DNA from: Campylobacter mucosalis
GTDB lineage: Bacteria > Campylobacterota > Campylobacteria > Campylobacterales > Campylobacteraceae
Assembly (NCBI RefSeq): GCF_013372205.1
Contig: NZ_CP053831.1
Span: forward strand, 1,612,001-1,676,000
Direction of reading: 5' to 3'
DNA: 64,000 nucleotides
Each line of letters starts with the position of its first letter. The first letter of the stretch is position 1. The position numbers and the translations under genes are program-made. Shown one piece after another: positions 10,173 to 55,437 of this stretch. The notes under the pieces were generated by a model. That model worked only from the letters and a program-made list of their open reading frames with translations, had not been told where the DNA came from and did not search any database.

Positions 10173-10278
10173 TTTTTAGATGATTTTTAAAGTTGCGAAG
10201 GAATTTTAAATCAAGATAAGACATTTAGTCTATCGTAGATTTAAAATTCCAAACTTCTTAAAATATCAAAAAACACGA
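10173..10278 (+). repeat. Palindromic intergenic element, copy 1 (degenerate outer arms)
   Basis: The core AAGATAAGAC-N5-GTCTATCGTAG (10213-10237) is enclosed by a perfect 13-bp stem, GGAATTTTAAATC (10200-10212) with GATTTAAAATTCC (10238-10250). A further AAGTT/AACTT stem lies outside it. The outermost arms seen in copies 2 and 3 are decayed. Same orientation as copy 2, which follows after about 12 bases. It lies between the fccB-like gene and the flavoprotein pseudogene. Confidence 0.75.
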
Positions 10279-10290
10279 CAAAAATCTATA

Positions 10291-10392
10291 TCGCAAGATG
10301 AATTTAAATGTTGTTGCAGTTTTTGCGACCAAGATAAGCCGTGTTGGCTATCGTAGGACGCAAAAACAAAACTCATTTAAAAGCACTTGCGA
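10291..10392 (+). repeat. Palindromic intergenic element, copy 2 (102 bp, different arm sequence)
   Basis: Nested stems: TCGCAAG (10291) with CTTGCGA (10386); TTTAAATG (10303) with CATTTAAA (10374); GTTTTTGCG (10319) with CGCAAAAAC (10359); AGCC with GGCT around loop GTGTT. The core is AAGATAAG[CC]...[GG]CTATCGTAG. The core starts 40 bases from the left edge exactly as in copy 3, and total length is equal. The middle arm differs from copies 1 and 3, yet pairing is kept. Confidence 0.75.
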
Positions 10393-10410: not shown

Positions 10411-11631
10411 TTAGATGTTTTCGCCAGCTATCATACCAAAGACTAAGCAGTCAGATATCGCGACCGAGCCAAGTCTACTAGCTCCGTGAACACCGCCAGT
10501 AACCTCACCTGCTGCATAAAGCCCAGGTATTGGTTTGTGTGTTTTAGCGTCGATAACTTGTGCTTTTGTGTTTATCATCACGCCACCCATTGTGTGATGA
10601 AGTTTTGGAGTGCCACGAACCGCGTAAAATGGCGGTTTTTCTATCATTATACCAGCCACAGTGTCCATAGGTTTGCCAAACTCATCTTTACCTGCTTTTA
10701 CGCCTTCGTTGTATTTTTTAATGCTCTCTTTTAGCGGCTCTAGCGGAATTTTAAAATGTGCAGCCATATCCTCAATGGTGTCAAATTTTTTAAGCACACC
10801 ACTTTCTAGTGGTTTTTTAAAGTGGCTATCCATAAGTGTCGCAACACCCTGAGAGTCGCAGAAATTTATAGGGTAGTTTTGATCATCGCCGATGACTTTA
10901 AACATAGCTTCTGATCTAGTCCTGCGGTCGGCAAGTTCATTCATATAGCGTTTGCCAGTTTTTGGATTGACTGAAATTCCATATCTAAAACTTGCATTTA
11001 CGTTAAACATAGAACCAACACCAAAGCCCTTCTCATCGGCACACGCCCAAGGTCCGTATTGTATCCAGCTTAGCTGAACTGGCGTAGCACCAATCCTTAA
11101 AGCCTCAACTAAGCCACCAGCAGTCGCACCTGGGTGGTTTGTGCTATCAACGTCATCTTTGATTGTTGGGTGTTGGGTTTTTCTAAAGAACGCGTCACGG
11201 CAAAAGCCTCCAGTAGCCAAAACAACAGCTTTTTTAGCCCTGATAGTTTTTGGAGTGCCAGTGGTGTTTTATATGTCGTCATTTAAAGATTTTGTATCAA
11301 AGCGATACTCCTCTCTGATATTTACACCAATGACTCCACCACTCTCATCAAGCACAAAACTATCAAATTTTGCCCTAGTGCGAATCTCGCCTTTTAGGTT
11401 GTTTTGGAAGTATTCAATCATCGGTTGCACGATTCCAGAGCCACTTCCGTTTGCAGTTTGTAAGCTTCTAGCAACACTATGCCCACCAGCGTGAGTGATC
11501 TCAGGGACATATTTTGCACCGCATTTTAGCGTTAGCTTATATGCATCTTGTGCACGGTTTGCTATGGCGTTGATTAGCTCGACGTAGTTGTATCCGCGAC
11601 CAGCTTTTAAGCAGTCTAAGTAGCTTAAATA
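10411..11631 (-). pseudogene. Flavocytochrome c/fumarate reductase-type flavoprotein, FccA-like, degraded
   Basis: The reading frame from about 11631 to 10411 encodes the C-terminal three quarters of a periplasmic FAD_binding_2 reductase. Visible motifs are HAGGHSVARS, KKAVVLATGGF, HPGATAGG, and the C-terminal GLYAAGEVTGGVHGASRLG. Two lesions break it. There is an in-frame TAA at about 11267-11269, between LNDDI and NTTGTPKT, which separates a 269-residue downstream ORF. In addition the 5' end is missing: a signal peptide and the dinucleotide-binding GxGxxG segment are absent, and an in-frame TAA precedes residue YFYLSYL at 11638-11640. Substrate was probably fumarate, methacrylate or a similar unsaturated acid. 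The cytochrome partners downstream are intact. Confidence 0.85.
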
Positions 11632-11729: not shown

Positions 11730-11805
11730 GGTCGCGTAGCTCAGCTGGTAGAGCACTACCTTGACATGGTAGTGGTCGGAGGTTCAAGTCCTCTCGTGGC
11801 CACCA
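11730..11805 (+). tRNA. tRNA-Val (anticodon GAC)
   Basis: A 76-base cloverleaf with acceptor GGTCGCG/CGTGGCC, D arm GCTCAGCTGGTAGAGC, anticodon stem CTACC/GGTAG around TTGACAT (anticodon GAC), T arm with GGTTCAAGTC, and CCA encoded. It starts about 100 bases beyond the truncated 5' end of the flavoprotein pseudogene, so the deletion breakpoint lies beside this tRNA. Confidence 0.95.
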
Positions 11806-11903
11806 TTTACTTCGATAAGACAAATAAAAACAGCCACAAACATATAAAGTAAAAAATATTAAAAGAAAATATAAAAAAGGGATTTAAAAACATATTGAAG
11901 AAG

Positions 11904-53117: not shown

Positions 53118-53876
53118 TTATGCGATGCTTAAAATTTCAGCCCTGCCGTTTATGATAGCAACGCAATGCTCGTAGTGTGCCGTCCTAAGTCCGTCCTTAG
53201 ATGTAACACGCCACTTGTCACTACCAACAACTGGTGTGCCGTCTTTTTGGCAAATCATTGGCTCAATGCAAAATACCATTCCATTTTTAATCTTTGGACC
53301 AGCTTTTGGGTTTGTGCCCTCTAGATAGTTTGGGATTTCAGGCTCTTCGTGAGGCCTACGACCAATGCCGTGTCCACAAAATCCACGAAGTGGGACAAAA
53401 CCACGAGCGGTTATAAATTTTTCAAGCTCATTGCAAAGCTCTTTAAAATGTATACCCGTTTGGATAAAATCAATGGCAAAGTAAAGAGCGTCTTTTGAGC
53501 AAGCTATTAACGCCTCATCTTTTTTTGAAATTTTACCAACGCCAAAAGTTCGTGCCGAGTCGCCAAAAAATCCGTCTAAATTTGAGCCAATATCAACACC
53601 TACGATATCTCCCTCTTGCAAAATGGTCTTATCGGGTATGCCGTGGATTACAACCTCATTTAGGCTGATACAAGCTGCATTTGGAAAGCCATAAAGCCCT
53701 TTAAACGCAGGTTTTGCACCGCAAGAAAGTATCATCTCCTCACAAATTTTATCAATCTCAAGCAAACTCATACCAGGCTTTATCACGCTCTCTACATAAT
53801 CAAGCGTCTTTGCCACTATTTTATTTGCCTCTCTTAGTTTTTCTATCTCTCGTGGTTGTTTTAATGTTATTGCCAT
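53118..53876 (-). CDS. map: Map, methionine aminopeptidase (type I)
   Basis: A 252-residue enzyme with the dinuclear metal ligands visible: VGVDIGSNLDGFFGDSART (two Asp), GFCGHGIGRRPHEEP (His), FCIEPMI (Glu) and the C-terminal YEHCVAI (Glu). It removes initiator Met from nascent proteins. In C. jejuni map follows secY directly; here 298 bases with a palindromic repeat intervene, so it may need its own promoter. Confidence 0.95.
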   Translation of the reverse strand: MAITLKQPREIEKLREANKIVAKTLDYVESVIKPGMSLLEIDKICEEMILSCGAKPAFKGLYGFPNAACISLNEVVIHGIPDKTILQEGDIVGVDIGSNLDGFFGDSARTFGVGKISKKDEALIACSKDALYFAIDFIQTGIHFKELCNELEKFITARGFVPLRGFCGHGIGRRPHEEPEIPNYLEGTNPKAGPKIKNGMVFCIEPMICQKDGTPVVGSDKWRVTSKDGLRTAHYEHCVAIINGRAEILSIA

Positions 53877-54063: not shown

Positions 54064-54165
54064 TCGTGAGATGATTTTTAGGGTTGTGTAGGAATTTTAA
54101 ATCAAGATAAGACATAAAGTCTATCGTAGATTTAAAATTTCAAACTCCCTAAAAAGCACTCACGA
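54064..54165 (+). repeat. Palindromic intergenic element, copy 3 (102 bp, between secY and map)
   Basis: Nested stems: TCGTGAG (54064) with CTCACGA (54159); TTTTTAGGG (54075) with CCCTAAAAA (54147); GGAATTTTAAATC (54091) with GATTTAAAATTTC (54129, one mismatch); GAC with GTC around loop ATAAA. The core AAGATAAGAC...GTCTATCGTAG is the same as in copies 1 and 2. The rest of the secY-map gap (53877-54063) shows nothing I can interpret. Confidence 0.8.
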
Positions 54166-54174
54166 GAAAAGCCA

Positions 54175-55437
54175 TTAAAGACCGACTGCTGATAGCGTTT
54201 GATATTTACTCATATAATTTTGTGCCTCAATCCTTCTCATCGTATCAAGAGCGACAGAGACAACAATAAGCACCGAAGTGCCACCAAAATAAAACGGAAC
54301 GCCCATAAATTTTACCAAAACCCAAGGCAAGGTTGAGATTAAGCCAAGATAAATCGCACCACTAAATGTAAGGCGACTAGCCACTTCGTTTAAATACTCA
54401 GCCGTATGTTCGCCAGGACGTACACCTGGTATAAAGCCACCTTGTCTCTTTAAATTTTCACTTATATCTTTTGTATTAAATGTGATTGAAGCGTAAAAAT
54501 ACGCAAAAAAGATGATAAATAAAAATGTTAAAAAGTTAAATGTATAGCTATTTGGGTTTAAAAAGTCATAAACTGCTTGAACATATTTGTTGGTACTAGC
54601 CTGCAAAATCGTGCTAGGAAACATCAAAATCGCACTCGCAAAAATCGGCGGTATAACACCACTTAAATTTACCTTTATAGGTATGTAGTTCATTATGCGT
54701 TTGTTTTGATTTTGCATAATTACCTTACGAGAATACGAAATCGGTATACGTCTTTCGCCCATCTCCACAAAGATGATAATGCCAATAGTCAGCAAAATAA
54801 CGATAAAAATTCCAATAACTGCTAAGAAATTCATCTCGCCGGTATTTACTAAATTTATCGTGCCACCTATCGCACTTGGTATGCCTGAGACGATACCTGC
54901 AAAGATGATAAGGCTGATACCATTACCAATGCCTCGCTGTGTGATTTGCTCACCTATCCACATTAAAAGCATAGTGCCTGTTAGCATAGAAGCGGCAGCG
55001 ATTGCGATAAATAGGTTTATATCTACCATAATAGCTTGTTCACCTTGAGTGCCTGTTAAGCTCTGAAGTCCTATGCTGACGCCTATTGACTGCACTATCG
55101 TAATAACAATCGTAGCGTAGCGGATAATTTGCATATACTTTTGCATACCATCACGCTCTTTTTTCATCTTGCCCAAATTTGGGAAAGTCGCAGCTAGTAA
55201 CTCCATAATGATCGAAGCTGTAATGTAAGGCATAATGCCAAGTGAGATAATACTAAGACGCTCAGCGGCATTGCCACTAAACATATTAAATAGTCCAAGG
55301 GCGTTATTGCTGTTTGAGTTAAAAAATTCTTTAATCACATCTACATTAACGCCAGGAACCGGCACATACGCCAGTATCCTGTAAGCGAATAAAAATGCCA
55401 ACGTGATTAGAATCTTGTTGAGCAGTGTTTTATTCAT
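54175..55437 (-). CDS. secY: SecY, protein translocase channel subunit
   Basis: A 420-residue protein of ten transmembrane helices with the family N-terminus ILITLAFLFAYRILAYVPVPGV, FNMFSGNAAERLSIISLGIMPYI, and QRGIGNGISLIIFAGI. The cytosolic loop ERRIPI(S)YSRK is also present. It is the last gene of the spc block here and overlaps rplO by one base. Confidence 0.97.
   Translation of the reverse strand: MNKTLLNKILITLAFLFAYRILAYVPVPGVNVDVIKEFFNSNSNNALGLFNMFSGNAAERLSIISLGIMPYITASIIMELLAATFPNLGKMKKERDGMQKYMQIIRYATIVITIVQSIGVSIGLQSLTGTQGEQAIMVDINLFIAIAAASMLTGTMLLMWIGEQITQRGIGNGISLIIFAGIVSGIPSAIGGTINLVNTGEMNFLAVIGIFIVILLTIGIIIFVEMGERRIPISYSRKVIMQNQNKRIMNYIPIKVNLSGVIPPIFASAILMFPSTILQASTNKYVQAVYDFLNPNSYTFNFLTFLFIIFFAYFYASITFNTKDISENLKRQGGFIPGVRPGEHTAEYLNEVASRLTFSGAIYLGLISTLPWVLVKFMGVPFYFGGTSVLIVVSVALDTMRRIEAQNYMSKYQTLSAVGL

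Follow-up and report, generated by a model that had tools for sequence, protein, structure and literature searches.

The window analysed here (64,000 nucleotides of the Campylobacter mucosalis genome) carries three palindromic copies that share one core, and the question they raise is what kind of element this is and what maintains its shape. A preliminary description had offered a structured RNA, a REP-like hairpin or a protein-bound cruciform. The second of these proves closest, although the element is larger than REPs and comes without a REP transposase. Our analysis indicates that it probably belongs to a family of mobile palindromes that are non-autonomous and occur in Campylobacter relatives, and the best reading is that it acts like the Rickettsia palindromic elements (RPEs) and the CGTC-tagged REPs, but is longer and structurally richer. 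The three copies and their cores are as follows.

10173..10272, + strand: copy 1, with core and inner 13-bp arm intact and outer stem decayed; AATTTTAAATC arm subfamily
10213..10238, + strand: core of copy 1 (bulged A, AA/GTA loop, 5-nt apical loop)
10291..10392, + strand: copy 2, a complete 102-bp element; AGTTTTTGCG/CGCAAAAAC arm subfamily
10331..10356, + strand: core of copy 2
54064..54165, + strand: copy 3, a complete 102-bp element; AATTTTAAATC arm subfamily
54104..54129, + strand: core of copy 3

The core, AAGATAAGNC-N5-GNCTATCGTAG, was said to be shared by three copies, and it has three exact matches in the window (at 10213, 10331 and 54104, all on the + strand), where the shuffled window leads us to expect 0.00. 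These are also the only exact cores in the whole 1.77-Mb genome (G000), which has a further match with 3 mismatches at 511566. Copies 2 and 3 measure, as described, exactly 102 bp, and their cores are set 40 bases from the edge; they fold end to end at -42.1 and -41.5 kcal/mol respectively (z against shuffles -6.7 and -8.3, with 0 of 200 shuffles as good). Each arm does pair with its own partner, 98.7% of cells being paired over 38 stem pairs when these two copies are compared, and sliding the partners by 1-3 columns reduces pairing to 32-47% and double changes to 0-1. Both sides have changed in 12 of the 38 pairs (5.9 in shuffles), but 24 are invariant, and the claim that the arms differ in every stem was therefore too strong. 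Copy 1 belongs to the family by its core and inner hairpin, and scores 62.9 bits with covariance model R1 (see below), but its outer stem has decayed. The bulged A and the AA/GTA internal loop are indeed kept in all three copies. The adjacency of copies 1 and 2, and the arms that copies 1 and 3 have in common, might recall chance palindromes or the simple duplication of one sequence, yet the probability of this is practically nil; it is refuted by the expected number of cores, by the double changes, and by the R1 matches in other genomes and the 15-copy covariation presented below.

When 15 diverse copies are aligned with their flanks, 95.9% of cells are paired and 25 of 41 pairs are doubly changed, a number that 0 of 500 shuffles reach. 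A fixed folded geometry is maintained while the stem sequences drift in compensating fashion, and the suggestion that structure is preserved rather than sequence holds well beyond the window. The aligned copies all retain the same series of parts: an outer stem that reads TCGYRAG/CTYRCGA or, alternatively, TTTTGAG/CTCAAAA; a bulged A with a TG/CR step; TTT/AAA; GTTG..CAG/CAAAC; a variable arm of ~13 bp; an AA/GCA loop; a bulged A; and a 5-nt apical loop. The A bulge is retained across the wider family, in which the inner loop is mostly AA/GCA, flipped in some copies to GTA/GA. Most copies extend past the 102 bases. There, a left-hand GAAGTA faces a right-hand GACAA or GACGA in an extra internal loop, which is bounded by a short covarying stem (GGC/GCC, GCG/CGC or TTGC/GCAA); 3 of 3 pairs of this stem covary in the 15-copy alignment. 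The unit comprises the interrupted hairpin of ~102 bases, this additional conserved loop (GAAGTA/GACAA) and a short stem of variable sequence. There is also a second hairpin class, which has the same core and outer loop and an 18-bp inner arm (L018, + strand search position 1708; L056, 1674).

The covariance-model search of Campylobacter genomes that had been suggested was carried out with a model built from copies 2 and 3 alone (R1, threshold E<=0.1), which matches 44 of 48 genomes of the genus, many at E<1e-15 and the best foreign match at 6.6e-24. Hundreds of further copies lie in related genomes, whereas the preliminary description would have counted a lack of further copies as its refutation. 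Copy number ranges from 0 to about 37 across the genus; G002, G036 and G044 give no match, and the number is high in G035, G037, G038 and G039 (31-37 each by R1), in which nearly all copies are matched over all 102 positions at ~100-105 bp, and a few measure 125-135 bp. A second model, R2, built from the 15 diverse copies with flanks, matches 63 of the 153 genomes of the family, in 4 of its 12 genera; among 349 genomes drawn across the order, matches outside the family are confined to 5 genomes, all of one other family, which indicates that false matches are rare. Neither model detects an element in G034. Two unrelated loci of G037 (L046/L050) carry elements of 101 bp that are identical, which argues for recent dispersal. 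Rfam gives no match above gathering score for the element, searches of open papers turned up no description of such a Campylobacter repeat, and as far as we could find this palindromic element of ~102 bases has not been recorded previously. A strict core pattern applied to 84,980 species genomes returned 8 matches in unrelated phyla, which we judged to be chance.

The element is dispersed, and its sites are filled in some lineages and empty in others; this holds for the secY-map junction, the flavoprotein-cytochrome c space, valS and helices 25 and 45 of 23S rRNA. At the secY-map junction (30 genomes taken, of which G044 was unreadable), an insert of ~293 nt with copy 3 is present only in the window genome and its nearest relative, G033; secY and map abut or overlap in 25 of 28 relatives, and G034 and G047 have spacers of another kind without the element. 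The insert lies between two short features:

53872..53876, - strand: ATGGC, the present map start; the other copy of a putative duplication, with the ~293-nt insert between
54171..54177, - strand: TAATGGC, the secY stop with what is left of an ancestral, overlapping map start; the ATGGC in it is one copy of the putative duplication of 5 bp

The two occurrences of ATGGC are a possible 5-bp target-site duplication, seen at one site, where map needs an ATG start in any case. The space between the flavoprotein and cytochrome c genes is short and holds no element in G001, G009, G034 and G047, while in G000, G035, G037 and G038 elements of different arm subfamilies directly follow the stop. Either repeated insertion or replacement by conversion may lie behind this pattern, and different subfamilies at one site could mean conversion between copies rather than new insertion. 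At another orthologous site (L033, L035, L036, L038, L041), the same flanks enclose two clearly different elements between genomes, which suggests replacement or conversion.

Placement relative to genes was tallied over 80 distinct copies, many of which are orthologous, so that independent placements are fewer than 80. It is non-random, in that the right end lies near a gene: an antisense neighbour mostly has its stop codon 6-24 nt past the right end (9 nt being directly after GACAAGCC), and a sense neighbour mostly has its start codon 26-28 nt from it, just past the ribosome-binding site. Distances from the left end to a gene are usually much larger, typically 100-500 nt. In the window, 18 nt separate the right end of copy 2 from the flavoprotein stop (antisense, at 10411), and 9 nt separate that of copy 3 from the secY stop (also antisense). 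In G035, G037, G038 and G039, many copies have a second repeat of ~330-400 bp immediately to their left; its ends are inverted (CACCGAGACCCGCACC / GGTGCGGGTCTCGGTG), and it contains a GGGAGAGGAAGGGG hairpin (examples are the left flanks of L062, L065, L070, L078, L083 and L084).

Positions just after stops or before ribosome-binding sites, together with covariation and fixed internal loops, would fit a structured RNA, cis-acting or small, that is kept for host function as a regulatory leader, an mRNA stabiliser or an RNase III site; moreover, G.T exceeds A.C in the stems, 45 to 21. We nevertheless regard such an RNA as unlikely. Transcripts of the neighbourhood contain the complement of the + strand at most copies and the + strand itself at some, and the G.T excess is independent of this; the genes adjoining copies are unrelated to one another; the genus-wide range in copy number and the sites that are empty in most relatives also speak against a host function; and copies within valS and 23S rRNA cannot all be leaders. 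The G.T and A.C counts were also considered as a guide to the functional strand and set aside, the excess being mild, too weak to decide and model-biased. A protein-bound DNA cruciform with a chromosomal role, in architecture or as a replication marker, would accommodate the multiple internal loops at fixed spacing, which suggest protein contacts, and an orientation in line with the replichore in 85 of the 106 copies listed for complete genomes. However, we rejected replichore bias as an independent signal; the pooled counts are real, but confounded with orthology and gene direction, and since orthologous copies inflate the bias, which is weak within individual genomes of high copy number (22 of 29 in G037, 22 of 34 in G038), gene orientation may explain it. 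Some members of the genus have no match at all, and a cruciform role appears distinctly improbable.

Some observations count against a mobile palindrome as well. Placement with the right end toward genes goes beyond simple random insertion, and no transposase partner was found, the Y1_Tnp profile matching 0 of 48 genus genomes in a search that covers the Y1_Tnp family only and whose control gave matches in 5 known genomes. With a Y1 transposase absent from all 48, present movement of the RAYT type is unlikely. A classic REP moved by a RAYT (Y1) transposase would likewise be palindromic, intergenic and adjacent to stop codons, with some HH-type pairs, but it is highly improbable here and largely refuted unless the enzyme has since been lost; besides the missing transposase, the element measures 102 bp against 20-40 bp, and the terminal GTAG tag of REPs is absent from its ends, GTAG or GCAG occurring only inside the inner loop.

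Among known systems of mobile palindromes, the CGTC-tagged REPs have no dedicated transposase, lie mainly beside coding regions and sometimes in-frame (PMC3733652, PMC10969869), and allow CGTC, TGTC or CCTC as end variants (PMC3733652). The element resembles them in its CGTC/TGTC end, in the occurrence of outward-facing (HH) pairs and in having no dedicated transposase (PMC3733652): the reverse complement of the right end reads TGTC in 36/80 and CGTC in 17/80 (together 53/80), the tag being absent from the three window copies, and the copy pairs within 1.5 kb in three genomes are 3 HH and 1 TT, most copies being single. However, CGTC-tagged REPs have stems of 8-9 bp and loops of 4-5 nt, while the element is an interrupted hairpin of ~40 pairs, and their CCA tail was not seen in it; because stem size and tail both disagree, we do not file the element among them, though it works like one. 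RPEs are similarly dispersed palindromes of ~100-150 bp without a known transposase, sited between genes and in-frame in protein genes (PMC10969869, PMC3733652), and in-frame insertion in a protein gene is found here too. The likeness is one of behaviour, and RPEs belong to other bacteria, whereas our element is also found in 23S rRNA and has several covarying stems and conserved internal loops. MITEs (ERIC, Correia/NEMIS) are also short, non-coding intergenic palindromes without their own transposase, but the stem ends of the element vary and covary instead of forming fixed terminal repeats, and no parent insertion sequence has come to notice. Integron attC sites are recognised through their folded structure and have arms of variable sequence. 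Recognition by fold with variable arms would be the point of analogy, but the fixed part of the element is its core and loops, and it does not appear to form cassette arrays; integron-like gene cassettes were considered for the L070 cluster and dismissed, since it holds ordinary-sized genes on both strands.

Two further settings, in-frame in valS and inside 23S rRNA, could not have been seen from the window. The fourth copy of the window genome (G000:C1:652940-653041) is in-frame in valS, just before IVATTRPET, and the NWC..RPET segment of ValS is 106 residues long there, against 46-47 in most relatives; in G033 this segment has 46 residues, while downstream ValS is 98% identical to that of the window genome. 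Segments of 68-116 residues are found at the same place in G001, G034, G009 and G026, and outer element sequence is recognisable in those of G001, G009 and G026. A genome of another genus (G056) has an in-frame valS copy at the same place, and the ValS copies of the two genera share FASADR..SS.EQNS.S, which could be one inherited insertion. In G266 and G437, of the other family, an in-frame copy lies in a protein that we take, from the appearance of its sequence, to be saccharopine-dehydrogenase-like. In the ValS of G034 (L091), the segment at this site exceeds the usual length by ~70 residues, despite the lack of R1 or R2 matches, and it is possibly a decayed or other palindrome.

Within the 23S gene, the element lies antisense to the rRNA inside helix 45 insertions of G037, G041 and G045, and in G037 also within a helix 25 insertion, and two copies that face outward lie in helix 25 of G422, a genome of the other family; the helix names are our own assignments from the flanking sequence in the light of 23S structure. 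Helix 45 is short and empty in G000, G033, G016, G035 and G038; an intervening sequence (IVS) occupies it in G001, G037, G041 and G067. Cutting by RNase III is established for 23S IVSs in general, and by analogy RNase III would excise the rRNA-borne copies. A 2009 survey of Campylobacter IVSs describes them, with stem-loops, in helices 25 and 45, and a term search of this survey returned no mention of repeats, transposition or homologues elsewhere (PMC2801512). Copies of the element, though not those of the window, lie inside such insertions in some genomes, but make up just part of each IVS.

We propose that a folded single strand, either hairpin DNA or + strand RNA, would be recognised by some enzyme that copies or moves the element; the conservation of shape rather than sequence points in this direction. 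The element would persist at places that can bear a long hairpin with little damage: immediately beyond the stretch needed by the ribosome, at the tips of 23S helices from which RNase III could remove it, or in-frame in a tolerant loop of ValS. A bolder proposal, which we put forward tentatively and think rather doubtful, is that there is a new mobile-hairpin superfamily that needs a folded strand of fixed three-dimensional geometry for transposition by some enzyme, and that is a source both of 23S IVSs in Campylobacterales and of in-frame protein insertions. To our knowledge, the origin of IVSs in bacterial 23S rRNA is an open question. Since one and the same hairpin is found between genes, in rRNA insertions and in-frame in an aminoacyl-tRNA synthetase, and relatives with empty sites allow comparison, their origin from mobile palindromes becomes directly testable. 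The Rickettsia-type phenomenon of palindromes within protein genes is also extended to Campylobacterales, and the many copies with conserved internal loops provide a rich alignment for finding whatever recognises the fold.

The neighbourhood of copies 1 and 2 has two further features. The flavoprotein ORF (window 10411-11220), of 269 aa, matches FAD_binding_2 in its C-terminal half alone (profile 200-412). It is perhaps truncated or frameshifted, and tRNA genes lie upstream of it. At window 11767-11878 there is an Rfam match to the HPnc0260 antisense RNA (62.1 bits, cut-off 59), which overlaps a tRNA gene on the opposite strand.
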